This document shows, piece by piece, positions 7,826 to 23,305 of a stretch of DNA of 39,102 nt; position 1 is the stretch's first letter, and the number at the start of each line of letters is the position of its first letter. Source of the stretch: Methanobacteriota archaeon (GTDB lineage: Archaea; Thermoplasmatota; Thermoplasmata; RBG-16-68-12). Below the pieces are notes generated by a model. It was not told where the DNA came from and ran no database searches. It saw only the letters and a program-made list of their open reading frames with translations. The translations under genes were made by a program, and so were the position numbers. Where the stretch lies: contig JAIBJG010000007.1 in NCBI GenBank assembly GCA_020029475.1, forward strand, positions 1-39,102, in the 5' to 3' direction.

Positions 7826-7922
7826 CCGGGGGCGGTAAGGCGGGGCGTCCGAAAGCCTTTCGACGTCCGCGGGACCGCCGACTCGCCGTTCTCACGCGGC
7901 GGAACCACGCCGAAACCATGAT

Positions 7923-7958
7923 GGAGGGGCAATCCTCCGGCGACGGGGACCAGGGAGG
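7923..7958 (+). promoter_or_regulatory. possible competing pairings around the Shine-Dalgarno of the surface-protein gene
   Basis: GGAGG (7923-7927), CCTCC (7934-7938) and the Shine-Dalgarno-like GGGAGG (7953-7958) lie in order before ATG 7966. The middle element can pair with either neighbour, so the leader could in principle switch between a free and a masked ribosome site. The stems are only 5 bp and may be chance in GC-rich DNA. Confidence 0.2.
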
Positions 7959-7965
7959 ACCCACG

Positions 7966-10900
7966 ATGCGCCCTCAGGAACCGGATCGGATGCGCCTGCG
8001 AACTCGATGTCTCGTCGCCTCGTTCGTGGCCGTCGCGATCGTGATCACGGTCCTCGCCTCCCCGCCCGCCGCTCGGGCGTCGAACGGCGTCCTGAACCCG
8101 CCCCACAGCGATGCGGGACTCGACATGAACGGGAACGCCCTGTGGGACTACCTCGTCATCTCCGTCGGGGCGACGGTCTCGACGCCCGGCGGGTTCTTCC
8201 TCTTCCTCCAGCTCTACGACGCGGCCGGGACGACCCTCATCACCCAGAGCCAGAAGCTCGTGGACCTCCCCGGGGGAACGAGCGTGACGGCGGTCCGCCT
8301 GGAGGGCTCGGCCATCTGGAGGGCCGGCATCGACGGCCCGTACCGGGCGCAGATCGCCCTCGTGAACGACACCTTCTCCCTGCAAGGGATGGGGTTCCAC
8401 GCGACGGCGGCGTACCTGTCGATCGACTTCGAACCCACCCCCGCCCGCCTCGCCCCGCCCCATTCGGACGCGGGCGTGGACATGGACGGGGACTCGCGGT
8501 TCGACTACCTCTCCGTTGACGTCCAGGTGGACGTCGCGACCGCGGGAACGTACGCGGTGCAGGGCCTGCTCTGGGACTCCCCGCCGACGACCCTGATCCG
8601 CATCCAGACGAACACGACGTATCTCGCGCCGGGGACGCACACGGTCCTCCTCCGGTTCCCCGGGGCCGCGATCCGGGCCGCGGGTCTGAACGGGCCGTAC
8701 GAGGTTACTCTAGACCTCTTCGGCTCCACCGGCCCCCAGCTCGACACGGGCACCCACGTCACCTCGACGTACTTCCTGAGCGACTTCGATCCCCTCGCCG
8801 CGGCCTTCACGAGCCCCCACGAAAGCTTCGTCGTGGACCTCGACAGGGATGGGTTCTGGGACGACCTCGTCGTGAACGCGATCGTGACCGCGACGGAGCC
8901 GGGGTTCTACCGGGTCGATGCGGGGATCTCGTCGATCCCCGCCTTCGCGAACGTCCGCACGTACCTCCCTGGAGGGACCCAGGTCGTCCAACTCGACTTC
9001 CTCGGCGTGGACATCTTCACCTCCGGCGTCGACGGGCCGTACACCGTGGACCTGACCCTCTGGGACGAACACGCCCGGAACCTCGACGTCGACATCCACA
9101 CGACGGGGACGTACTTCGCGATCGACTTTGAACCTTCCCCGCCCGCCCGGTGGGTCCCTCCGTTCCTCGACTCCGTGCGCGACCTGCAGGGGGACGGGTT
9201 CTGGGACGACCTCGTCGTGAACACGAGCGTCCTCGCGGACCGCCATGGCGGGTACAGCTGGACGATCGAGCTCTGGGACTCCGCGATGACGACGTTCATC
9301 GGCACGGCCGACGGGCAGTTCGAACTGTCCTCCGGAACGAACCCCGCAAGCCTGGCCTTCCCCGGGCTCCAGATCTGGAACTCTGGGGTCGACGGGCCCT
9401 ACGGCGTGAACCTCGTCCTGTACGAACCGGAGGGCCGGCAGGTCGATGTCCAGACGTTCACGACTGCCCCGTACCTCGCGACGGACTTCCAGGGTCCTGC
9501 CGGACGCCTCACGCCGCCGTACTTCGACCTCGGTGTGGACCGGAACGGGGACACGATTCTCGACGTGATCGCGGTCGATGTGCCGATCACGGTGACCCGC
9601 GGATCCACGTTCATCCTCACCGGGATCATGGTCGACGGCTCCTTCGGTCTCGTCGGGTTCGACCAGCGGTTCGTCGACCTGCAGCCGGGGCTCTCGACGG
9701 TCCGGTTGAACTTCTCCGCTGCGGACGCGTTCCGGGGCGGGCCGGACGGCGCGTTCTTCGGGATTCTCCAGCTCCAAACGATCTCTGCCGGGACGACCCT
9801 CTTCGTCGACGGGGACACGTTCATGACCCGGAACTACACGGGCGCCCGGTTCGACCAAGGGCCCCCCGTGCGCCTCACGGGCCGGGCCACCGCAGCCGGG
9901 TCCGGCGCCCCCCTCGAGGACATCGGGATCATCGCGTGGTCCCCCGCGACCCGGCTCCAGCGGAGCGCGAACACGGACGTGTCCGGGTCCTACGAGATGA
10001 CCCTGCCACCCGGGGACTACTACGTCTTCGCGGACGGGGCCTCCCGCAACGCGCAGGGGGTCTTCCAGACCGTGACCTCGGACCGCTCTCTCAACTTCGT
10101 CCTCGACCTTCCCGCGCCCAGCGTCGTCACCGGGAGCGTCTCGTTCAGCGACTGGAGCAACGCGACGTTCGTGGGGGACTTCACGTTCGGCGCGGACGCG
10201 GTGTTCACGCGGTTCCAGTTCGACGTGGTGTTCGGGAACGGGGACGGGATCGCGAGCCAGGCGGAGCTCGACCGTCTGTTCGAGTTCGGCACGCCCCCGT
10301 CCCTCCCGCTCACGACCCGGGACACGTTCACCGTGGACGGGCGGTCGTACGTCCGTGCGAATGGCACGGAGACGTTCACGCTCTCCGGGGCCGGCCCGAT
10401 CACCTCGAGCGCGCCCCTCACGGGCCGGGTGACGGGGGACTACGCAGCGTCCTCCGCGGTCCCGTCGATGACCGTGCACGTCGGGCGGTTCCTCACGGAG
10501 TTCGATACCGTGAGCTCGACCCAGACATTCACCCTAGGATGGCCCTCGAACTTCGCGATGACCTCCTTCGACCCCGTCGCCGGGGTCGCGATCACCGGCG
10601 TTGGTGGACCGTCCGCAGGGATCGACCCCGCCTCGGACCCGAACCCCCGGGACTTCGTCCGAGAGGTGTGGGTGAACACGACGATCGAGACGACGGACAC
10701 GACCCCGCCCCTGGTGACGGGAGCGGCCCTGGACGCCGCCTCGACCCTCCGATCCCGGCCCGGACCCACGGTGACCGTGACCGCCACCGCGAGCGACGCG
10801 GGCCGTGGGGACTGGCCGATCCAGGGAGCGAACTTCACCCGCGGCGCCCGGAACTGGGCCTCCGCGGTCCCGATGAGCGCGACGGACGGGTCCTTCGACG

Positions 10901-11925
10901 GCGTCACGGAAGCCGTGACGGGCGCCCTCGCCACCGCGACCCTCGCGGACGGGACGTATTCCATCTGCGTGTACGCCCGGGACATCGTGACGAACAACGA
11001 CACGGCGGGGAACTGCGCGAGCCTGACGATCGACAGCACCCCGCCGACGGCCTCGACCGTGCGGGTCGACGGAGCGACGATGAAGACCGTCGTCGTCGGC
11101 GCGCAGGTCACCCTGACCGCCACCGTCAGCGACGCATCCACCGGCAACGGGGACGTCTCAGCGGCGAACTACACTCGTGGGGCCGCGAACTGGGCGAGCT
11201 CCAGGGCGATGAACGCCGGGGACGGCGCGTTCGATTCCTCCACGGAGTCCGTCACCGCCGCCGTGGACACGACGGGCTGGACCGCGGGCACGTACGACCT
11301 CTGTGTGTACGCCGTGGACGACCTCGGGAACGGCGACCCGTCCGCCGCCGACTGCGCGCAACTCGTCGTCCTCGACCGGGACGTCACCGCCCCAGTCGTG
11401 ACCGGGGCGCGCGCCCTTCCGAATCCCGCGAACCTCTCCGAGGCGGTGAACATCTCCGCGGTCGTGACGGACGACATCGGCGTCAACGCCGTGTACATCG
11501 AGATCTTCGACGGGGGCGGGGCGAGCGTCGGAAACGTCACCGCCGCCTACGACCCGGCAAGCGGCCGATACTCCGTGGAACGGACGCTCCCGGCGCCGGG
11601 GACGTACACGTATCGCGTATCGGCCCGAGACGCGGAAGGAAACTGGGCCACCACGACGGGGACGTTCTCGATCCGAACGCCGCCGTCGGACGGGGCTCCC
11701 CTCGGGGGGCTCTGGTGGTTAATCCTCGTCGTGATCGCCGTCGCTGCCGCAATCGTCGTGTTCCTCTTGTGGACGCGAAGGCGGCGCCCCGCCAGGATGG
11801 GAGCCATGCCCCCCGCCGCTCCCCCGATGACGGGGATGCCCGCGGAGTCCCCCCCGGAAGCGCCCATGGAGATCCCGCCGGAGATCGACGAGATCGACAA
11901 GCCCCTACCCCCGCCTCCCACGTGA
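7966..11925 (+). CDS. large repeat-rich surface protein, C-terminally membrane-anchored
   Basis: A 1319-residue secreted protein. A signal peptide occupies about residues 1-40 (CLVASFVAVAIVITVLA core). Five tandem repeats of about 118 residues follow (DNA starts near 8097, 8455, 8812, 9158 and 9512). Each opens with a D-x-[ND]-x-[DN] loop such as DMDGDSRFD or DLDRDGFWD and has an internal [DG]GPY motif. Next comes a carboxypeptidase-regulatory-like domain (from about 9880). Two repeats carrying the motif ANFTRGARNWAS / ANYTRGAANWAS (about 10700-11370) and an Ig-like domain follow. A single helix with a RRRR stop-transfer and a Pro-rich cytoplasmic tail ends the protein. The loops suggest calcium binding. 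ATG 7966 was chosen for GGGAGG 7 nt upstream; ATGs at 7918 and 7921 are possible. Confidence 0.85.
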   Translation: MRPQEPDRMRLRTRCLVASFVAVAIVITVLASPPAARASNGVLNPPHSDAGLDMNGNALWDYLVISVGATVSTPGGFFLFLQLYDAAGTTLITQSQKLVDLPGGTSVTAVRLEGSAIWRAGIDGPYRAQIALVNDTFSLQGMGFHATAAYLSIDFEPTPARLAPPHSDAGVDMDGDSRFDYLSVDVQVDVATAGTYAVQGLLWDSPPTTLIRIQTNTTYLAPGTHTVLLRFPGAAIRAAGLNGPYEVTLDLFGSTGPQLDTGTHVTSTYFLSDFDPLAAAFTSPHESFVVDLDRDGFWDDLVVNAIVTATEPGFYRVDAGISSIPAFANVRTYLPGGTQVVQLDFLGVDIFTSGVDGPYTVDLTLWDEHARNLDVDIHTTGTYFAIDFEPSPPARWVPPFLDSVRDLQGDGFWDDLVVNTSVLADRHGGYSWTIELWDSAMTTFIGTADGQFELSSGTNPASLAFPGLQIWNSGVDGPYGVNLVLYEPEGRQVDVQTFTTAPYLATDFQGPAGRLTPPYFDLGVDRNGDTILDVIAVDVPITVTRGSTFILTGIMVDGSFGLVGFDQRFVDLQPGLSTVRLNFSAADAFRGGPDGAFFGILQLQTISAGTTLFVDGDTFMTRNYTGARFDQGPPVRLTGRATAAGSGAPLEDIGIIAWSPATRLQRSANTDVSGSYEMTLPPGDYYVFADGASRNAQGVFQTVTSDRSLNFVLDLPAPSVVTGSVSFSDWSNATFVGDFTFGADAVFTRFQFDVVFGNGDGIASQAELDRLFEFGTPPSLPLTTRDTFTVDGRSYVRANGTETFTLSGAGPITSSAPLTGRVTGDYAASSAVPSMTVHVGRFLTEFDTVSSTQTFTLGWPSNFAMTSFDPVAGVAITGVGGPSAGIDPASDPNPRDFVREVWVNTTIETTDTTPPLVTGAALDAASTLRSRPGPTVTVTATASDAGRGDWPIQGANFTRGARNWASAVPMSATDGSFDGVTEAVTGALATATLADGTYSICVYARDIVTNNDTAGNCASLTIDSTPPTASTVRVDGATMKTVVVGAQVTLTATVSDASTGNGDVSAANYTRGAANWASSRAMNAGDGAFDSSTESVTAAVDTTGWTAGTYDLCVYAVDDLGNGDPSAADCAQLVVLDRDVTAPVVTGARALPNPANLSEAVNISAVVTDDIGVNAVYIEIFDGGGASVGNVTAAYDPASGRYSVERTLPAPGTYTYRVSARDAEGNWATTTGTFSIRTPPSDGAPLGGLWWLILVVIAVAAAIVVFLLWTRRRRPARMGAMPPAAPPMTGMPAESPPEAPMEIPPEIDEIDKPLPPPPT

Positions 11926-13928: not shown

Positions 13929-15968
13929 TCACGCGACGTACCCGCATCGCAGGCAGCGGAACCGGCCGTTCTCGTATGCCGCCTCGACCCATGCGCACCG
14001 CGGGCAGCGGTATTCCACGGGGGACGTGCCGTACAGGGGAGGGCGCCGCGCCGGCGCGTATCCCGGGGGGAGCGCGGCGACCGGGGGACCCGCCACCGGT
14101 CCCGGGGGCGCACCCTGCGGAGCGTACGGAGGGTATTGCGCCGAGGGGCCGTCCGCGCCTCCCGGACCCGACGCCGCGATGCGAACCCGGGTCGCGCTCG
14201 GGCGGGCCACGTCCTGGAAGAACCGGACGGCATACAGGAAATAGTACGCGAGGAAGCCCGAGCCAGGGATGAGGAGGAGGAAGAACGCGACGCCCAGCGC
14301 GACCCCGAGGGGGGAGTCGAAGCCGGCGAGGTACGCCGTCGCGATGAAGACGTCCGTGGCGAAGTGGAAGATGATCGCGGCGTGGAGCCCGTGCCGGAGG
14401 AACAGGTATCCCATCGCGAGCCCCGCGAGGCCTGCCGGGAGGACCTTCCAGATTCCGTACCCGGGGGCGTGGGCGAGCCCGAAGACGGCGGAACTCGCTC
14501 CGAGGAAGAGGAGGGCGGGGAGGAGGATCGGAAGGGGCGTCCGCCGGCTCATCCCCCCGCCGAGCAGGTACCGGAAGGATCCGAGGACGTACCGGCCGCT
14601 CCTGGATCCCGCGGGGACCCGGCCCCTCGAGATCCCGGAGCCCCGAAGGGCGAGGGAGCCGAGCATCATGGGGACGCCGATCATCAGGACGCGGAAGATC
14701 AGCTCCTCGTACACGGGCGCGTTCAGGAGGGAGAAGATCAGATACCATTCGGGGATCTCGGAGAAGAACGATGGCTCTGGCGGGTTCGTGAGAATCCCGA
14801 CCGCGATGCTGAGGGCGGTGATCGCCATGAACGTCTGCATGATCGCCACGGTCGCGCTCCGCGACCGGAGCTTCGCGGGGATCCGCTCGGAACCCACGCG
14901 GATCGTCTCCCACAGGGGTCGATAGTCCCGCACGACGAGCACGGCGAGGGAGGCGACGGTCACCGCCACGATCGCCGCGGTCCAGAGGTAGAACGCGACG
15001 GGGTCCTGCGTGTAGTAGAGGAGGATTGGGACCGGCGCCACGATCGCGACGTCCACGAACGCGGACGTCCGCCAGGAGAGTCGGGCGTTGTCGATGCCGA
15101 CGACCGAGGGCGTCCCCGGCGCGCCTGCACGGTTCGACGCAATCGCGGCGATCTTCACGTAGTACGTCCCTGCGCCGGGGATGGACGAGGACACTTCGAC
15201 CGCGTCGATTACCTCCCCCGTGGGCAGGTACACGGATGTTGCAGAGGTCCAGTTCGTCGGTGCGGCGAGGGTCACGTTCCACACGTCGCCGACGGGCCGT
15301 CCGTTCGGACTGAGAGGGGGCGGGGTGCCCGCGGACGGGCTCACGTACACGGCGATCGTCAGGTTCCCGAGAAGGTCCGAGACCTGGAAGACCCGGTAGT
15401 CCAAGCGGACCGCCGCGAGATACGGAGAGGACCCGCTCGCCTGGAACCTCTGGGACCAGTACCCGCTCGCGATCGCGTTCGACCGGCCCTCGAGGCGGAC
15501 CTCTCCGTAGGCATCGGGATGGCCTCCCGCGGGGTTCACACTCCCGTTCGCCCCGAGCGCGGTCCATGGGGAGAACGTCCAGACCCCGGGGGAGTCGAAC
15601 CCCGGGTCCGAGGTCTCGCCCTGCCGGATCTGCTCGATCCCCGCGGTGATCGGGACGAGGGCCCCGAACATCCCCGCGGTCGCGATCGCGAGGATCACGA
15701 GGAAGGCGATCAGGGAGAACAGCCACGCAACGTTCAGGAGCGTGTACCCGACGGAGGGCCCCGGAGCGGGGGGCCGGATCCACGCACCCCATGCAGGAAG
15801 TCCGCACGCGGGGCAGAACCGCCCTGCGTACAGGGTCCCGCACCGGCTGCACTGCGCGGTCGGGATTGCGGCGACGGCCGCGGACGGAGACGGAGATGCG
15901 CCGACGGGCGTCCCGCAATTCGGGCAGAAGCGTCCCTCGAATGTCGTGCCGCACCGGGGGCAGGCCAT
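13929..15968 (-). CDS. CPBP-family membrane protease with zinc ribbons and an extracellular beta-rich domain
   Basis: A 679-residue protein with an unusual layout. Two N-terminal zinc ribbons (CPRCG/CPNCG and CSRCG/CPACG, residues 2-60) precede a membrane helix near 78-104. An extracellular domain follows (about 121-301) that resembles one in the giant pilin-like protein at 19265. Several helices then carry the CPBP (CAAX protease/Abi) motifs: YEELIFR, FGLAHAPGYG and HFATD. A Pro/Gly-rich linker leads to a C-terminal ribbon (CPRCA/CLRCG). The glutamate and histidine motifs indicate an intramembrane metalloprotease of the Rce1 type; the substrate is unknown. ATG 15968 fits a TATA-like ACTTAAAGG (15997-16005); a GTG at 15998 lies at that box. 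Confidence 0.85.
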   Translation of the reverse strand: MACPRCGTTFEGRFCPNCGTPVGASPSPSAAVAAIPTAQCSRCGTLYAGRFCPACGLPAWGAWIRPPAPGPSVGYTLLNVAWLFSLIAFLVILAIATAGMFGALVPITAGIEQIRQGETSDPGFDSPGVWTFSPWTALGANGSVNPAGGHPDAYGEVRLEGRSNAIASGYWSQRFQASGSSPYLAAVRLDYRVFQVSDLLGNLTIAVYVSPSAGTPPPLSPNGRPVGDVWNVTLAAPTNWTSATSVYLPTGEVIDAVEVSSSIPGAGTYYVKIAAIASNRAGAPGTPSVVGIDNARLSWRTSAFVDVAIVAPVPILLYYTQDPVAFYLWTAAIVAVTVASLAVLVVRDYRPLWETIRVGSERIPAKLRSRSATVAIMQTFMAITALSIAVGILTNPPEPSFFSEIPEWYLIFSLLNAPVYEELIFRVLMIGVPMMLGSLALRGSGISRGRVPAGSRSGRYVLGSFRYLLGGGMSRRTPLPILLPALLFLGASSAVFGLAHAPGYGIWKVLPAGLAGLAMGYLFLRHGLHAAIIFHFATDVFIATAYLAGFDSPLGVALGVAFFLLLIPGSGFLAYYFLYAVRFFQDVARPSATRVRIAASGPGGADGPSAQYPPYAPQGAPPGPVAGPPVAALPPGYAPARRPPLYGTSPVEYRCPRCAWVEAAYENGRFRCLRCGYVA

Positions 15969-16064
15969 CGGAGCGCCGAGCAAGCCCCGTGGAGCCACTT
16001 AAAGGTCGCGCTCACGACCTTCGAAAGGGATCGTCGGACGGGAGGGCTCGTCCCCGGAGGAACC

Positions 16065-16074
16065 CTTATATCCC
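16065..16074 (+). promoter_or_regulatory. TATA box upstream of the 85-residue gene
   Basis: CTTATATCCC is a clear TATA element. It lies about 60 nt before ATG 16132 and about 30 nt before an in-frame GTG at 16102, so it leaves the start of the small gene open. Confidence 0.5.
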
Positions 16075-16131
16075 GTGCGCCCGGTGCCATGGCCCCTTCC
16101 GGTGCGACCGGGGACTCCGTGGGGGCTTCAG

Positions 16132-16389
16132 ATGGACGAGGAGACGCGAGGGAAGCGGGGCGACGTCGAGTTCGTGACAATCCGCGCGGAGAAGATCAAC
16201 TTCGGCCGGAACAACTTCCTCGAGGTCGCCCGGAAGCGAGCGACGACCGCCGAGGGCTCAAACGAGTTCATCTCCGTGTCCCGCGGATACTACCTCCCCG
16301 ACAAGTCCGAGCGGTTCAAGCGGTCCCTGACGATCCCCGACGACGCGCAGATCAAGAGCTTCATCGCGGAGAAGATCAAGAGCCTGTGA
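16132..16389 (+). CDS. small conserved-looking hypothetical protein
   Basis: The 85-residue product is charged and has no membrane segment or signal peptide. Notable stretches are VEFVTIRAEKINFGRNNFLE and SRGYYLPDKSERFKRSLTIP, ending in an amphipathic helix. I do not recognise the family. The regular alternation of polar and non-polar residues and codon use like its neighbours support a real gene. A GTG at 16102 would add 10 residues and fits leaderless spacing to the TATA box. It is convergent with the gene ending at 16423. Confidence 0.65.
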   Translation: MDEETRGKRGDVEFVTIRAEKINFGRNNFLEVARKRATTAEGSNEFISVSRGYYLPDKSERFKRSLTIPDDAQIKSFIAEKIKSL

Positions 16390-16422
16390 CGCCACGGCCG
16401 GGGTGGACGCCCGCCTTCCTTC

Positions 16423-16743
16423 CTACCGGAAGATGAGTCCCACGCCCGCCGCGACGTCGTCCTCCTGGTCCCGGATCTTCTGCCGGACCGCCGCGGCCTT
16501 CGCGGGGGGGAGTTCCTCCGCGATCCCCTTGAACAGCTCCGCCGCGCGGGCGAGCGCCATTTCGTCGCCCTCGACCAGGACGAGAGTCCCGAGCCCGGGA
16601 AAACCGAGAGCGTCCGCGTCCCGCTCCACGATGCTCTGGCGGCTCACGAGGTCGTCCTTCAGGACCTCGTCCTTCTGTGGCTTCTTGGCGGGGGGCACGC
16701 TGAACACCTTGAACATCGAGCGCTCGAACCGGGGCGCCGCCAT
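16423..16743 (-). CDS. hypothetical protein, soluble
   Basis: A 106-residue product beginning MAAPRFERSMFKVFSVPP. It is mostly helical and charged, with a hydrophobic core stretch LGFPGLGTLVLVEGDEMAL (about residues 46-64) and a C-terminal RQKIRDQEDDVAAGVGLIFR. No known domain is recognised. The ATG is 11 nt after the stop codon of the 53-residue membrane-protein gene, so the two probably form an operon. A longer open frame reaches 16968 but overlaps the small membrane-protein gene in another frame, so I rejected that extension. Confidence 0.6.
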   Translation of the reverse strand: MAAPRFERSMFKVFSVPPAKKPQKDEVLKDDLVSRQSIVERDADALGFPGLGTLVLVEGDEMALARAAELFKGIAEELPPAKAAAVRQKIRDQEDDVAAGVGLIFR

Positions 16744-16754
16744 AAACGCTGCGG

Positions 16755-16916
16755 TCACTCCTCTTCGTGGATCGCGAGGAACGGGAGGATGAGGAGGAAC
16801 GCCCCGACGACGAAGAACCCCATTCCCGTGAGGCGATCGACCGTCCCCGCGACCGCGAGACCGGCGACGAAGAACGCGATCCCGAGCAGGACCAGGAACG
16901 CCCGGGGGCGGGACAC
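16755..16916 (-). CDS. 53-residue two-helix membrane protein
   Basis: A short gene starting GTG at 16916. The product begins MSRPRAFLVLLGIAFFVAGL, has a first helix at about residues 6-22, a short loop TVDRLTGMG and a second helix to about residue 48, then the acidic end HEEE. A TATA-like CCTTTACG lies about 25-30 nt upstream on the minus strand, which supports a leaderless GTG. Codon use and hydrophobic pattern look real. It is followed closely by the gene at 16423-16743. Function unknown. Confidence 0.6.
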   Translation of the reverse strand: MSRPRAFLVLLGIAFFVAGLAVAGTVDRLTGMGFFVVGAFLLILPFLAIHEEE

Positions 16917-17012
16917 CGCCGTGCCATCCGGGGGCCGGACGTAAAGGTTTCGCGGCCGCCCTCCCCAAGCGGTTGCGACACGTTTTGATAATTGTCCAAA
17001 TAACTTAATCTC

Positions 17013-17028
17013 CGAACGCCCACGTTCG
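17013..17028. promoter_or_regulatory. inverted repeat between TATA box and start of the GAF-PAS gene
   Basis: CGAACG, spacer CCCA, CGTTCG: a 6-bp perfect inverted repeat between an AT-rich promoter region (TTGATAATTGTCC and AATAACTTAATC, about 16985-17010) and the start codon. Bound protein here would block the transcription start, so a repressor site is plausible. Confidence 0.35.
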
Positions 17029-17038
17029 AAAGGGAGTG

Positions 17039-18001
17039 ATGCTTCCAGACGGGGAGCTCGGAGACCAGAAGGTCCTCGCCGCGCTCCTGGGGATCTCGGA
17101 GATGGTCGCGGGGCTCACGGACCTCGAGGAGGTCCTCGGCGCCATCGTCCGGATCACGCCGCAGCTCGTCGGCGTGGACCGGTGCGCGATCCTCCTGCTC
17201 GACCCCCACAGACGGGAGTTCCGGACCGCGCAGGTCTTCGGCCCGGACCGGGAGCGGAACGCGACCTTCCAGAGACTCGTCCTCCGGGAGGAGGAAGTCC
17301 GGGCGCTTGCGCACCGGATCCTGGAGCAGAAGCTACCCGCCCTCGTCCGGGCGGGGTCCCTCCCGCCGTCGATGGCGGACACCCTCGGGATGCGGACCGT
17401 CCTCATCGTCCCCCTCGTGTGCCGGGACGAGGTCCTCGGGATCATGACCCTGGACCACACCCAGGGCCTGCGGCTCTTCACCTCGAAGGAGATCAACGTC
17501 GTGATGGGCGTCGCGCAGCAGGCGGCGATCGCGATCGAGAACTTCCGGCTGAAGTCCATTGCCGCACGGACGCGGGAGACCCTCCGGGTCGCGAGCGAGA
17601 TCCTCGCGGCCGGGCTCATCACCCTGACGGGGGAGTACCGGATTCTGTCCCTCGACCCCATGGCGGAGTCCCTCCTCCAGTGGACCACGTCGGAGGTCCA
17701 AGGGAAGGGGTTCTCGCAGACGTTCACGGTCACGGACCGCGAGGGGGTCCGGCTCCCCGACGTCGCGGAGGCCGCGGACCTCGTGCTCCGATCCGTCGGT
17801 CGGAGGGACCCTCCCGTCCTGTACTTCCGGAGGAAGGACGGCAGCCGCGTCCTGTGCGAGGTCCGCGCCGCGCCCGTCCGGGACGACCTGGGGGAGGTCG
17901 TCGAGATCGTGTGCGTACTCCGGCGGACGACCGGCGACGGCGAGGTCGAGGGGCCCGTCGGGACCCCGGTGGCCCGTCGCGTCCTCAACGCGGCCCCGTG
18001 A
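17039..18001 (+). CDS. GAF-PAS sensor protein without a recognisable output domain
   Basis: A 320-residue cytosolic protein. A GAF domain spans about residues 10-175 (helix GISEMVAGLTDLEEVLGAIV, strand DRCAILLLDPHRREF, and GIMTLDH near the end). A PAS-like domain follows from about 185 to 300 (ILSLDPMAESLLQW; LYFRRKDGSRVLCEVRAAPV). There is no histidine kinase, GGDEF or DNA-binding domain, so it must signal by protein contact if at all. The start is ATG 17039, immediately after an in-frame GTG at 17036; both are close to leaderless. It ends one base before the convergent HTH-ATPase gene, which may be its partner by context only. Confidence 0.82.
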   Translation: MLPDGELGDQKVLAALLGISEMVAGLTDLEEVLGAIVRITPQLVGVDRCAILLLDPHRREFRTAQVFGPDRERNATFQRLVLREEEVRALAHRILEQKLPALVRAGSLPPSMADTLGMRTVLIVPLVCRDEVLGIMTLDHTQGLRLFTSKEINVVMGVAQQAAIAIENFRLKSIAARTRETLRVASEILAAGLITLTGEYRILSLDPMAESLLQWTTSEVQGKGFSQTFTVTDREGVRLPDVAEAADLVLRSVGRRDPPVLYFRRKDGSRVLCEVRAAPVRDDLGEVVEIVCVLRRTTGDGEVEGPVGTPVARRVLNAAP

Positions 18002-18002
18002 A

Positions 18003-19088
18003 CTATCGCGTCGCGGCCCGGGAGAACAGGAGGAGCCGGATCTCCGCGAGGGTGAACCGGGAGACCTCCCGGAGCCTTGCGGCGTTTCCGTCCCGGATCA
18101 GCGTGAGGTACAGCGGGCACCCCTTCGTGAGGAGGTACACCTGCCGGAGGGACTCCGCACCGATCGCGGGGTTCCCCAGGAGCTGCCGGGTCCCCTCCGG
18201 GCTCAGCCCCTTCAGTCGGATCTCTCGCACGGTCCCCTTCCGGACCTCCGCGGGGCCGTAGAACCGGCAGTACGAGGGGGTCGCCTCCTGCGCGAGGACG
18301 AGGAGTTTCGCCCCCGGACTCGAGGCGATGGTCGCGAGGAGCGCGGAGACCGCATCGACGACGCCCTCCGACACCTCTCCGTATCCGTCGAGGACGATGA
18401 GGGGCTTCAGGGCGGGGATGTCCCGCTCAAGCCCGTCCGGGTTGCCGGACCCGCCGAGGCTCCGCAGCGAGGACGCGATGTCGCGCCGGAGACCCGCGGG
18501 ATCGTCGGGGGCGACATCGACCCAGGTGGAGGGCCGCCGCGTTCCCGCGGTGAACGCGCGGGCGAGCGCCGTCTTCCCCATGCCCCGGGATCCGTACACG
18601 ACGAAGGCGGGGACTGGACCTTTGAGCCATTCCGCGATCGCCGTGAGGTCGGACTCGCGCTCGATCAGGTCCGACTCCGGAACCGTCAACGCGACTTGGC
18701 GGGGGCGGTAGACGCCCGCGTCGTCGAGGCCCGAGACGATCTCCCCCGGGGCCACGCGAAGTTCCGCGGCGAGGGCGCCGATCGCGATCCGCCGGTCCCC
18801 GAACCGCACCTCCTCGGACTCGAGCCCTCCGAGGAGCTCCCGCGCGCGGCGGATCCCTGCCTCCGTGAGCGCGTATACGCGGACCTTGCGACCCCGGCCC
18901 CGCAGACGTCCCTCGCGGACCTCCGCGGAACCGTCTTCGACGAGCCGCTTCACCGCACGGGGCACGTGGCTCCGGCGCAATCCCGTGCCCACGGAGATCC
19001 CCTCCTGTGTCGCCTCTTGCACCGCGTCCTTCGCGTTCCACATGGGGAGGAGGTGGACGAGGACCCGCTCCGCCGCGGTCAGGAGCAC
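18003..19088 (-). CDS. winged-helix AAA/STAND-like ATPase, predicted transcription regulator
   Basis: A 361-residue protein with an N-terminal winged helix (about residues 1-90; recognition region GLRRSHVPRAVKRLVEDG and wing RGRGRKVRVYALTEAG). A P-loop ATPase follows with Walker A GSRGMGKT (166-173) and Walker B PLIVLDGYGE (about 228-237). LPLYLTLI-like helical sequence at the end resembles archaeal MNS/STAND ATPases. The layout suggests an ATP-dependent DNA-binding switch. The start is GTG 19088, with a TATA-like TTGATATGAAAT 20-35 nt upstream. It is divergent from the giant pilin-like gene, and two inverted repeats in the shared gap are candidate sites for it. Confidence 0.8.
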   Translation of the reverse strand: MLLTAAERVLVHLLPMWNAKDAVQEATQEGISVGTGLRRSHVPRAVKRLVEDGSAEVREGRLRGRGRKVRVYALTEAGIRRARELLGGLESEEVRFGDRRIAIGALAAELRVAPGEIVSGLDDAGVYRPRQVALTVPESDLIERESDLTAIAEWLKGPVPAFVVYGSRGMGKTALARAFTAGTRRPSTWVDVAPDDPAGLRRDIASSLRSLGGSGNPDGLERDIPALKPLIVLDGYGEVSEGVVDAVSALLATIASSPGAKLLVLAQEATPSYCRFYGPAEVRKGTVREIRLKGLSPEGTRQLLGNPAIGAESLRQVYLLTKGCPLYLTLIRDGNAARLREVSRFTLAEIRLLLFSRAATR

Positions 19089-19113
19089 GTGGGTCCGAAC
19101 CCGCGGATTTCAT

Positions 19114-19147
19114 ATCAACAATTCGGTCCGAGCGCCGCGTTGTTGAT
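19114..19147. promoter_or_regulatory. inverted repeat ATCAACAA-N18-TTGTTGAT in the divergent promoter
   Basis: The arms at 19114-19121 and 19140-19147 are perfect 8-bp reverse complements. The left arm overlaps the TATA-like region of the HTH-ATPase gene, so binding there could give autoregulation as well as control of the pilin-like gene. Confidence 0.5.
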
Positions 19148-19152
19148 TCTCA

Positions 19153-19173
19153 GCGCGCGAAAAGTTCGCGCGC
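19153..19173. promoter_or_regulatory. inverted repeat GCGCGCGAA-AAG-TTCGCGCGC
   Basis: Perfect 9-bp arms (19153-19161 and 19165-19173) with a 3-nt spacer, 5 bp from the preceding inverted repeat and about 30 bp upstream of the TATA box of the giant pilin-like gene. It is an operator candidate; as RNA it would be a strong hairpin but lies before the predicted start of that transcript. Confidence 0.5.
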
Positions 19174-19204
19174 CGCGGACGCATTGGTAATGACCACGAT
19201 ACCG

Positions 19205-19212
19205 TTATATAT
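19205..19212 (+). promoter_or_regulatory. TATA box for the giant pilin-like gene
   Basis: TTATATAT is one of the strongest TATA matches in the window. It lies 53 nt before ATG 19265, leaving a leader of about 25-30 nt that carries the Shine-Dalgarno-like GGAATGGAG. Confidence 0.65.
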
Positions 19213-19264
19213 CGACCTGCCGCGTAGGCGGACCGTTTCCCCCAAGGAATGGAGTGCTGCCCCC

Positions 19265-22200
19265 ATGAAGCCCATTCGACGCTACCTGCGCGAGGATGAC
19301 CGCGGCGTGTCCGAGGTCATCGGAACGATCCTGATCCTCGGGATGACGGTCTCCCTCTTCGCGGCGATCATCATCTGGGTCACCTCAATCCCGACGCCGA
19401 CGACGAACGTCCGCCTCGAGCTCGACGGCGCGTTGATCCCGCTGAAGGACACGAACGGGAACTGGGCGGGAGTGAACGTCACGATCACGCACCGCGGGGG
19501 CGAGAGCCTCGGCTTCCCGGAAACCCGCGTGTACCTGACGATCACGAAGGCGAGCGGCACCTCCCAGACGGAGGTCCTGCGGACGAAGGGGACGATCAAC
19601 TGGGGCCCGAACCTCGGGTCCCCCTACGGCCTCATCGACGGGACGGACAGCACATGGAACATCAACGAGCGGTGGTCGATCGCGAACAAGACCGTGGACC
19701 CGACGGACAAGATCCGTGCGACCGTCGTCGACATCTCGCGGAGCGTGGTCCTGTGGCAGGAGGACATCCTCGGGCCCCAGGGCAGTCACCCGCCCCTGTT
19801 CCTGGAGAAGTGGGCGGACGGCGACCCCGAGACGACGACGATCGAGATCCCGAAGACCGGTTCGCCGTTCACGATCTACGCGAGGGTCACGGACGATGAC
19901 GGGAACCTGCAGAGCGTGAACGCGACCCTGACGATCTTCTACGGGACGCCGGACCCGTGCTCCGTCCCCCAGCCGATGTCGGACTCCGGGACGAACGGGG
20001 ACGTCGTCTCCGGCGACGGGATCTGGACCCTGAAGCGGGAGTGCATGGTCCCGACGAACCTCACGTGGGACGGGTCCATCGTCCTGTTCAGCGCGACGGA
20101 CGGCACGTTCGTGACGACGTCCCGGATGACCCTGCGGGTCGTGTTCGGGACCTCCCCGGGCGGCGGTGGCGGGGGCGGGAACACCTCCGGCCGGCCTCCG
20201 AACCTGCGGTACAACGGCCTCCAGGGATACAACCTGTTCAACGCGAGCCAGTGGGACAAGGCCGAGTTCGCGGCGAAGGAGACCCGGACGTTCAAGGCGA
20301 ACGAGCGGGTCGTCGTCGTCGTCGGGTCCTATCTCCTGAAGGACGCGGTGAGCCGGGACCAGTACTTGATGACGGACCCCTTCGGCGGCGGGAACTCGCC
20401 CACGTCGGTCGTGTACGGGACGAACAAGATCCCGAACCCCGCGACGAAGCCCTCGAACCTCCAGGCGTTCCGGTTCTACAAGCAGGTGAACGGGTACAAC
20501 GTCTTCATCTACCGCTTCGACATCAACAACGTCTCCAGCACCGGGATCAACTTCTACCGGAACCCGGTCCACCCGCCGTACTACTGGTTCGCGCGGTACT
20601 CCATGAGCATCGACATGATCGACTCCCAGGGGACGCGCTTCAACACGACGGACGCGATGAACATCACGGACAACGACGGGTTCATGCGGCAGTTCCCCGC
20701 GATCGAGACGTACAGCGACTCCGCGTACACCCAGAAGACGAACACGTTCCTTTCCACGGACCGTGCGTACGTCTCGGTCCAGATGTTCAGCGTCGACGCG
20801 ACGACGGACCAGGTCACGTTCGGGAACGTCCAGATCCGGGACTTCCTGGGCGGTGTGCAGGTCTTCAAGTCGTTCGTGAACGGCCGGGACGCGATCCCGC
20901 CGCTGTGCCCGGTCACGGGCGCCTGCACGGGCCGCGCCCTCGGCGTCGACGGCGCCACGATCACGTACCGGTTCATGGTGAACCTGAGCCTCACGGACGG
21001 AGATCCGTGGGTGGAGGGGTCCCAGAACTACGCGATGTCGATCTCGTACGTCGACGACGCGGATGAGACGTACACCGCGCTCTCCGCCCAGCTCCTGATC
21101 CGCGCCGCATTGTTCCGGCTCGACATCGCGGGCGGGAACCTCGACACGACCGGGCCCGCGTGGGGCACCCACGACTACGGGTACTACTACGAGAACCTGA
21201 ACGGGGTCGACAAGTGGCGGAAGATCCGCTTCGAGTACTGCGGGCTCCCCGGCGCCGGCCAGTGCAAGAACGCGGAGACCCATGCGGTCGCGTTCCTGGA
21301 CGGCGAGAACGACGGGGACCTGGACATCGCGGACTCCATCAAGCTCGACGCCAACAGCGCCGAGATCAACTACTACCGCCGGCAGGTCGACTTCGACGGC
21401 AACGTGATCTTCACGAAGTTCAACCTGGTCGCGCTGAGCGGTGCGAGCATCTACTGCAACGACATCGCGATCGGGGACCTCGACGGGAACTTCCTCCCCG
21501 AGATCGTTTGCGGGATCACGGACGGCCGCCTCGTCTACTTCAAGAACGACGGGACGTGGACGACGGGAAGCCCCTCCCCGTTCATCACGATCGATTCCAC
21601 CCGTGTCCAGCAGATCTGGGGGGTCACGATCGGGGACTTCGACCGGGACGGGGACCGGGACATCGCCGTCGCCCGCACAGGCGGGACCGTGACGTACTAC
21701 CTGAACCTGAACGGCCAGGGCTCCTTCTCCACCGGCGCGATCACGGACCGCTGGTATGCGGAGGCGGAGGTCACGAACACGGGAACGCACAACCCGGACT
21801 TCCTCGCGACGATCGCAAGCGACAACAACGATGAGGCGGTCCAGGAGGGGCTGAAGACGGAGCCCGCCCAGACCGGGACGACCCAGAACCCGGGCTTCAA
21901 CACCTCCTCGACCTCCTGGACGTACGCGGACTGGGAGAACGGAGGGTCGGCGAGCGGGAACTGGCAGAACAGCGGCGGGAACCCGGACGGCCTCGTGTAC
22001 GTGCAGACGAATTTCCTCGCGAGCCAGACCGTGAGCGGGCTCTGGCGCCAGAGCTTCACGACCACCGGCTCCACCCCGTACACGGCGACGGTCGAGTTCG
22101 ACCGGAAGGTCTCGCAGATCCAGGCAGGGGCCACGACGAGGGTGTTCGTGTTCGTCGACGCGGGCTCTGGCAACCCGACGGTCGGGACGGAGATCACGAC

Positions 22201-23305
22201 GCCGTTCACGCACACGACGACGACGGGATGGATCCAGAGCGGCGCGATTTCGGTACCGTCGAACAAGCTTCCGGCCCCGGGGACGTACCACCTGAAGATC
22301 GCGGCACGGACGACGAACCCGGGCTCGGGCGGGACGAACACGATCGTCCAGTTCGACAACATCTACCTGAACTGGTCGAGCACGGGTGGGCAGGCGAGCG
22401 AGCTCGAGCACTACTGGCGGATGCAGCCGATGCCGAACCGGCCCCTGTCGACGTACGCGCTCCGGTTCGAGTCCCACCGGTCCTCGCCCACGGACGGAGA
22501 CTTCTTCGCGATCGCGTACTCGATCGATGTCTCGGGCGCGGACCCGACGACGGGCACGTACACGACGATCCTCTGGGTGAACACGACGAGCGACGTCGCC
22601 CAGAACTACAACTTCCCCGTGAACCTGCAGAACAAAATCGTGTGGATCCGGGCGATCGACATCGACCATCACGTCGGGAACACGACCCTCGACACCCTGT
22701 ACCTGGACCAGATGTACATCGAGGTCACGACCGCGGCAATCCAGCCGGGCTCCGTGGTCACGCTGCCCTCGACACCGGCCGACGCGAAGGCGATCGACTC
22801 CGACGACCAGGACGCCGACGGGTACGTCGACGTCGTGGTCGGGACCTCGAACGGGAAGGTGTACAAGGCCATCGGGTTCGCCGGCGGTCTCCAGACCCCG
22901 GGCGGCATCTTCTACACGGTCACCGGGAACCCGGCGATCACGGGGATCAAGCTCGCGAACATCACCGCGTCGGGCACCGGACTCGAGATCGTGGTGTCCT
23001 ACGGGACGAACGTCCGCGTGATCTCCGGGAACGGGAACTCCGGGAGCTCGATCTTCGTCCTCGCCCCCGCGACGAGCGTGACGATCAACGCCCTCGCGGC
23101 GGGGGACGTCGATGGTGACGGGGACGACGACATCGTCGTCGCGACCGCGAACGCGGGCCCCGCCCTCGTGTACTACCGGAACCTCGGCGGGGCGGGCACG
23201 ATCTGGCAGAACTACAACATCGAGCCGCTGCCCGGAGGCACGACGATCACGATCCTCGACATCGACCTCGGCGACGGGAACAAGTCTCTCTACCTCGGAC
23301 GCTAG
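19265..23305 (+). CDS. giant pilin-like surface protein with FG-GAP repeats
   Basis: A 1346-residue protein. The N-terminus REDDRGVSEVIGTILILG, continuing through a 21-residue hydrophobic stretch, is the archaeal type IV pilin (Pilin_N) signal, cut before or near V15 by a class III peptidase. Beyond it lie a beta-rich domain (to about 300), a Gly linker near 299-305 and a large unrecognised region (about 310-660). FG-GAP/VCBS-like repeats occupy about 675-825 (GDLDGNFLPEI, GDFDRDGDRDI). A jelly-roll-like domain at about 875-1038 is shared with the CPBP protease at 13929. More FG-GAP units (DSDDQDADGYVDV, GDVDGDGDDDI) run to the end. Most pilins have 100-250 residues, so this may be a membrane-tethered adhesin using a pilin anchor. 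The stop codon overlaps that of the convergent gene. Confidence 0.85.
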   Translation: MKPIRRYLREDDRGVSEVIGTILILGMTVSLFAAIIIWVTSIPTPTTNVRLELDGALIPLKDTNGNWAGVNVTITHRGGESLGFPETRVYLTITKASGTSQTEVLRTKGTINWGPNLGSPYGLIDGTDSTWNINERWSIANKTVDPTDKIRATVVDISRSVVLWQEDILGPQGSHPPLFLEKWADGDPETTTIEIPKTGSPFTIYARVTDDDGNLQSVNATLTIFYGTPDPCSVPQPMSDSGTNGDVVSGDGIWTLKRECMVPTNLTWDGSIVLFSATDGTFVTTSRMTLRVVFGTSPGGGGGGGNTSGRPPNLRYNGLQGYNLFNASQWDKAEFAAKETRTFKANERVVVVVGSYLLKDAVSRDQYLMTDPFGGGNSPTSVVYGTNKIPNPATKPSNLQAFRFYKQVNGYNVFIYRFDINNVSSTGINFYRNPVHPPYYWFARYSMSIDMIDSQGTRFNTTDAMNITDNDGFMRQFPAIETYSDSAYTQKTNTFLSTDRAYVSVQMFSVDATTDQVTFGNVQIRDFLGGVQVFKSFVNGRDAIPPLCPVTGACTGRALGVDGATITYRFMVNLSLTDGDPWVEGSQNYAMSISYVDDADETYTALSAQLLIRAALFRLDIAGGNLDTTGPAWGTHDYGYYYENLNGVDKWRKIRFEYCGLPGAGQCKNAETHAVAFLDGENDGDLDIADSIKLDANSAEINYYRRQVDFDGNVIFTKFNLVALSGASIYCNDIAIGDLDGNFLPEIVCGITDGRLVYFKNDGTWTTGSPSPFITIDSTRVQQIWGVTIGDFDRDGDRDIAVARTGGTVTYYLNLNGQGSFSTGAITDRWYAEAEVTNTGTHNPDFLATIASDNNDEAVQEGLKTEPAQTGTTQNPGFNTSSTSWTYADWENGGSASGNWQNSGGNPDGLVYVQTNFLASQTVSGLWRQSFTTTGSTPYTATVEFDRKVSQIQAGATTRVFVFVDAGSGNPTVGTEITTPFTHTTTTGWIQSGAISVPSNKLPAPGTYHLKIAARTTNPGSGGTNTIVQFDNIYLNWSSTGGQASELEHYWRMQPMPNRPLSTYALRFESHRSSPTDGDFFAIAYSIDVSGADPTTGTYTTILWVNTTSDVAQNYNFPVNLQNKIVWIRAIDIDHHVGNTTLDTLYLDQMYIEVTTAAIQPGSVVTLPSTPADAKAIDSDDQDADGYVDVVVGTSNGKVYKAIGFAGGLQTPGGIFYTVTGNPAITGIKLANITASGTGLEIVVSYGTNVRVISGNGNSGSSIFVLAPATSVTINALAAGDVDGDGDDDIVVATANAGPALVYYRNLGGAGTIWQNYNIEPLPGGTTITILDIDLGDGNKSLYLGR

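Follow-up and report, generated by a model that had tools for sequence, protein, structure and literature searches.

A predicted beta-sandwich module is shared by a CPBP-type membrane protease and a neighboring giant pilin-like protein in one archaeal family

CPBP/Rce1-like glutamic intramembrane proteases (PF02517), including the archaeal MmRce1, have a characteristic set of catalytic motifs in a membrane core, and to our knowledge the prokaryotic members are mostly without known substrates. A review of haloarchaeal membrane proteases described the role of prokaryotic CAAX-type proteases as scarcely known (PMC9263693). The myxosortases MrtX and MrtJ are CPBP enzymes as well; they sort surface proteins of the MYXO-CTERM/JDVT-CTERM kind, and MrtJ adjoins a single target (PMC11980579). 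Archaeal type IV pilin-like FG-GAP surface proteins combine a Pilin_N class III signal with FG-GAP repeats, while CBM4, CBM11, CBM16, and CBM61 belong to the galactose-binding-like beta-sandwich fold class. Here, we analyzed a 39,102-nucleotide stretch of DNA from a Methanobacteriota archaeon of the GTDB lineage RBG-16-68-12 (contig JAIBJG010000007.1; "the window" below), from a family whose habitat we take to be soil. The window encodes a CPBP protease and a pilin-like FG-GAP protein that have an extracellular module in common. Searches of the open-access literature turned up no account of CPBP proteases that bear a CBM-like ectodomain.

The protease gene occupies positions 13929 to 15968 (minus strand) when read from the ATG that begins MACPRCG; an alternative GTG start at 15998 gives 689 residues, with the ATG at residue 11. 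The predicted protein matched PF02517 at E 1.9e-9 (38.1 bits, against a curated cut-off of 22.4). Its catalytic core (14349 to 14747, minus strand) was identified from this match and from the conserved EExxxR, FxxxH, and HxxxD motifs. Because the catalytic residues E431, E432, R436, H510, H545, and D549 were conserved in all 28 orthologues compared (position 549 being N or D), the enzyme is probably active. Two zinc-ribbon-like CxxC pairs, presumed cytoplasmic, lie at the N terminus (15801 to 15965, minus strand; CxxC pairs visible in the sequence, PF13248 E 3e-4, below the cut-off), and a zinc-ribbon-like CPRC...CLRC at the C terminus (13935 to 13997, minus strand) was read from the sequence and is kept in most orthologues. 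The first transmembrane helix (TM1) spans residues 87 to 105 (15684 to 15740, minus strand; hydropathy, 2.66).

The pilin-like gene (19265 to 23305, plus strand) encodes 1,346 residues and matched PF07790 (40.1 bits versus a cut-off of 25.2), PF13517 (56.8 versus 26.9), and TIGR02537 (25.5 versus 20). The Pilin_N domain with its class III signal (19301 to 19546, plus strand; assigned by PF07790, TIGR02537, and hydropathy) contains the sole transmembrane segment of the protein. In the remainder of the protein we detected no C-terminal transmembrane or CTERM-like tail, and Pfam matches to FG-GAP (propeller) repeats were observed at 21476 to 21670 and 23090 to 23206 (both plus strand). With a length of about 1,350 amino acids, the protein could act as an adhesin, at a tip or on the cell surface.

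A preliminary description of this DNA had noticed one pattern of motifs in the same order in both proteins, at coordinates that proved good to a few bases. In the protease, the segment lies at 15066 to 15605 (minus strand; residues 132 to 311 from the GTG, or about 122 to 301 from the ATG), within the loop between TM1 and TM2. In the pilin-like protein it lies between the FG-GAP repeats, at 21890 to 22384 (plus strand; residues 877 to 1041 of the frame translated from 19262). The motif order was present in both. When the protease segment was searched against the whole genome by tblastn, it matched only itself and the pilin segment (E 5.0e-16, 36% identity). Smith-Waterman comparison aligned the two segments over their whole length; the score of 211 compares with 36.9 ± 6.3 (maximum, 82) for 2,000 shuffles (z = 28). 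Profile-profile comparison of 18 protease-side with 15 pilin-side sequences by hhalign, a kind of comparison that the preliminary description had proposed, gave 99.9% probability and E 2.8e-37 over the full length of the module. Two unrelated extracellular segments could in principle resemble each other by coincidence, given the low charge and the beta-rich, Thr/Ser/Gly-rich character common to both. With z = 28, a full-length match at E 2.8e-37, and identical motif order, we regard this as vanishingly improbable, and the profile-profile result refutes it. The two segments are homologous copies of one uncharacterized extracellular module. Tryptophan and glycine positions and a C-terminal DN-x-x-L-x-W motif were kept in both the protease and the pilin clades.

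Structure prediction placed both copies in the same fold class. AF2 models built on 7-sequence alignments (the window and other loci) reached a pLDDT of 76.3 and a pTM of 0.78 for the protease copy, and 75.6 and 0.76, respectively, for the pilin copy. Foldseek searches of the PDB with either model returned overlapping neighbors, namely CBM11, CBM61, CBM16, the K2-2 depolymerase, and the Kp7 fiber, with CBM4 structures among the best matches of the pilin copy. The CBM matches had E values of 1e-5 to 1e-2 and TM scores mostly of 0.35 to 0.53, a moderate similarity, from models at a pLDDT of about 76. These predictions are consistent with the beta-rich, CBM/jelly-roll-like fold that had been suggested for both copies, and a galactose-binding-like beta-sandwich of the CBM4/11/16/61 type is likely but not proven. 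Searches of Pfam, NCBIfam, and PDB sequences with the module returned nothing credible, and no Pfam or NCBIfam model covers it. Pfam CBM models run against 33 module members gave no match above the cut-off, the best being CBM_2 for one member at E 0.025.

The preliminary description had also placed the protease copy outside the cell, after the first membrane helix and ahead of the CPBP core. This placement is supported because the N-terminal zinc ribbons are presumed cytoplasmic and because one helix, as computed for the family member G003, separates the module from the loop after TM2 (residues 357 to 383), which is strongly positive with 7 K/R. In orthologues that lack the extra hydrophobic stretch, a single helix flanks the module at either end. 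In the window protein, the module is followed by a weak hydrophobic stretch (residues 311 to 329) as well as a clear helix (residues 338 to 356), and the weak stretch leaves its placement outside in some doubt.

The module is narrow in range. Among 22 genomes examined from the window's family, 19 carried it in the protease and 16 in the long pilin-like protein; the protease copy was retained in 19 of 19 genomes in which that part of the protease is assembled. Neither copy was found in G006 or G021, both incomplete assemblies. A profile search of the window genome recovered one further weak relative (E 2.1e-6, contig C100), in a large secreted protein resembling Ig repeats. Module matches occurred in 28 of 400 genomes of a class-wide sample, and only in the window's own genome among 390 sampled across the phylum. 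Homologues outside the family were multidomain secreted proteins with N-terminal parts that read as subtilisin-, M14-carboxypeptidase-, or thioredoxin-like. The outside homologues L113 to L123 also had in common a further C-terminal domain (GWNFIS...GWNxVGYP) and a domain immediately preceding the module, which may represent an unnamed architecture of secreted proteins.

The protease and pilin genes are divergently oriented about 3.3 kb apart, and the module copies lie 6 kb from each other. They belong to a block in the order DNA_pol_E_B/PolD small-subunit-like gene, protease, two small genes, GAF-PAS gene, HTH-AAA gene, pilin, unassigned gene, HTH protein, and tRNA intron endonuclease. This order was the same across the window's family, and much of it was kept in the order's five other families. 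The GAF-PAS protein (17036 to 18001, plus strand) was assigned by domain scan and block synteny. The adjacent HTH protein with an archaeal AAA ATPase domain (18003 to 19088, minus strand) was assigned by synteny and by matches to PF01637 (E 1.3e-5) and PF13191 (E 1.6e-5), neither of which reached its cut-off; it is divergent from the pilin gene in most genomes and is a candidate pilin regulator. The two small genes (16075 to 16389, plus strand; 16423 to 16968, minus strand) had no Pfam match and were kept in the block across the order, the former with 60 to 83% identity to relatives. Near the protease, positions 7918 to 11925 (plus strand) encode a 1,335-residue protein with Ig-like and carboxypeptidase-regulatory-like stretches. 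A second protease copy in G002 (contig C199), which has a separate copy of the block around it and a frame break, more likely stems from a second strain than from paralogy.

Comparison with the order's other five families indicated how the protease acquired its ectodomain. Same-locus CPBP orthologues there were 451 to 479 amino acids long (408 in one cut by a contig end), about 200 residues shorter than in the window's family. All 11 that were aligned lacked the module, with a short loop linking TM1 and TM2 at the position where the window's family has it, marking the module as a clean insertion in this alignment. In eight insert-free orthologues (L127, L128, L130, L131, L135, L136, L138, and L139), the TM1-TM2 loop contains a CxxC pair near the insertion point. 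In the pilin orthologues of other families whose corresponding slot is visible, the sequence there was unrelated or the region was absent, and the module was not present; this comparison leaves aside family f5, both of whose contigs end before the slot. Because the module is absent from the proteases and the visible pilin orthologues of the other families, both gains would fall on one branch, with the pilin slot of f5 outside the comparison; an earlier gain by the pilin, shared with f5 and preceding that of the protease, is possible. Gain on the same branch by genes about 3.3 kb apart suggests local copying between the two. The protease copies formed one clade with 100/99 support, and gene conversion between the copies was rejected on this basis. 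A branch setting the pilin copies to one side appeared in 43% of bootstrap trees, so that copying may have gone from pilin to protease or the reverse.

Such copying might have had no shared role behind it: a chance duplication over 6 kb, in either direction, would have left two modules with unrelated jobs or a structural spacer. The gain of both copies at one locus and on one branch would fit this account, as would the greater diversity of the protease copies relative to the pilin copies and the lack of specific co-evolution (see below). However, the protease copy is under purifying selection: simple pairwise estimates of dN/dS for the module were mostly 0.16 to 0.33, with 0.46 for G000 versus G002. 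Since, in addition, none of the 19 family genomes with this part of the protease assembled had lost the module, and both clades conserved it at the same aromatic and glycine positions, we consider copying by chance alone unlikely.

The module might instead serve a dedicated pair, in which the protease recognizes, processes, anchors, or releases the neighboring pilin through the shared domain, by homotypic contact or a common ligand, somewhat as a sorting protease serves one neighboring target. Linkage speaks for such a pair, the genes being at most about 8 kb apart in most genomes of the order that have both on one contig, as does the gain of both modules on the same branch; MrtJ with its single JDVT-CTERM target and MrtX as a sorter of surface proteins provide precedent (PMC11980579). 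The linkage is weak evidence, however, since the block also includes housekeeping genes (those for the DNA_pol_E_B/PolD small-subunit-like protein and the tRNA endonuclease), and in G035 the protease and pilin genes are about 360 kb apart. The pilin, moreover, lacks a tail of the kind that a sorting enzyme of this type would act on. Three genomes of one clade (G005, G010, and G016; loci L071, L081, and L086) provided a natural test. At the place of the pilin they encode a short pilin of about 540 to 560 residues without the module. In a tree of the N-terminal part, this short pilin grouped (100/100) with short paralogues that other genomes encode at other loci. Searching each of these genomes in full (assemblies 74 to 85% complete) recovered a single pilin and a single module copy, and a long pilin elsewhere is unlikely. 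Their proteases nevertheless kept the module at a dN/dS of 0.17 to 0.19, as in pairs still with the long pilin, and strict co-occurrence of the two copies was rejected. The partial distance correlation between the two modules was 0.62, within the range for other parts across the two proteins (0.48 to 0.69), so that no distance-based excess of co-evolution was detected for the module pair. Because the module was kept under selection without the long pilin and co-evolution was not domain specific, a strict pilin-protease pair is not supported, and we think it improbable that the domain serves a dedicated partnership.

Rather than an obligate pairing of protease and pilin, we favor an envelope ligand, a glycan or glycoprotein, that is common to the two proteins, with each employing the module for its own purposes. 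The preliminary description had proposed that the shared domain lets the protease recognize or process surface structures. The proposal is partly supported: homology, a beta-rich fold, and placement outside the membrane gained support, whereas recognition or processing of the pilin did not, for the reasons given above, and the best reading of the protease segment is a putative binding or sensor ectodomain. In the family ancestor, the module entered the protease by insertion between TM1 and TM2, and it also entered the neighboring pilin-like protein; the two copies have since formed separate lineages, with no gene conversion detected. Under the shared-ligand explanation, both copies would bind one and the same envelope component, with a surface glycan or glycoprotein as the most likely candidate. 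The pilin copy could thereby aid adhesion, and the protease copy could keep the membrane enzyme at the surface or gate it there, such that membrane-anchored surface proteins would be cleaved at the ligand. The pilin would be a possible substrate or neighbor that is not required for retention of the ectodomain. Occurrence of the outside homologues in secreted multidomain proteins counts in favor of this explanation, which as a whole we judge to have a slightly better than even chance of being correct. Both the glycan nature of the ligand and the positioning or gating of the protease by binding are inferred from the predicted fold and from known surface-sorting CPBP enzymes (PMC11980579). It is doubtful whether the two proteins further constitute a family-specific surface system, in which protease and adjacent adhesin/pilin bind one envelope ligand through the same module and couple attachment to intramembrane proteolysis.

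The homology and the domain insertion are real and the module is unnamed; as an event, the shuffling of modules between surface proteins is of an ordinary sort. As a module that recurs in secreted proteases of related lineages and has no Pfam or NCBIfam entry, it merits a family model and a search for its ligand. Gain of the ectodomain on an identifiable branch, together with insert-free orthologues at the same locus, offers a natural before-and-after comparison of its role.

Compared with the described systems, the module probably belongs, judging by both AF2 models, to the fold class of CBM4, CBM11, CBM16, and CBM61 but is about 10 to 19% identical to them, with no Pfam CBM model above its cut-off, and its carbohydrate binding is putative. 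The pilin-like protein has the Pilin_N class III signal and FG-GAP repeats of archaeal type IV pilin-like surface proteins, but between propeller repeats it has the family-specific module, a position at which orthologues outside the family differ in sequence or lack that region. Like MrtX and MrtJ, the protease is a CPBP enzyme, and like MrtJ it is encoded beside a surface protein, but the neighboring pilin lacks a C-terminal sorting tail (motif, helix, and basic end), and the portion of PMC11980579 considered here mentions no comparable ectodomain. Relative to CPBP/Rce1-like proteases in general, whose catalytic motifs and membrane core it shares, the window protease adds zinc-ribbon-like ends and a predicted beta-sandwich of 150 to 180 residues in the TM1-TM2 loop.
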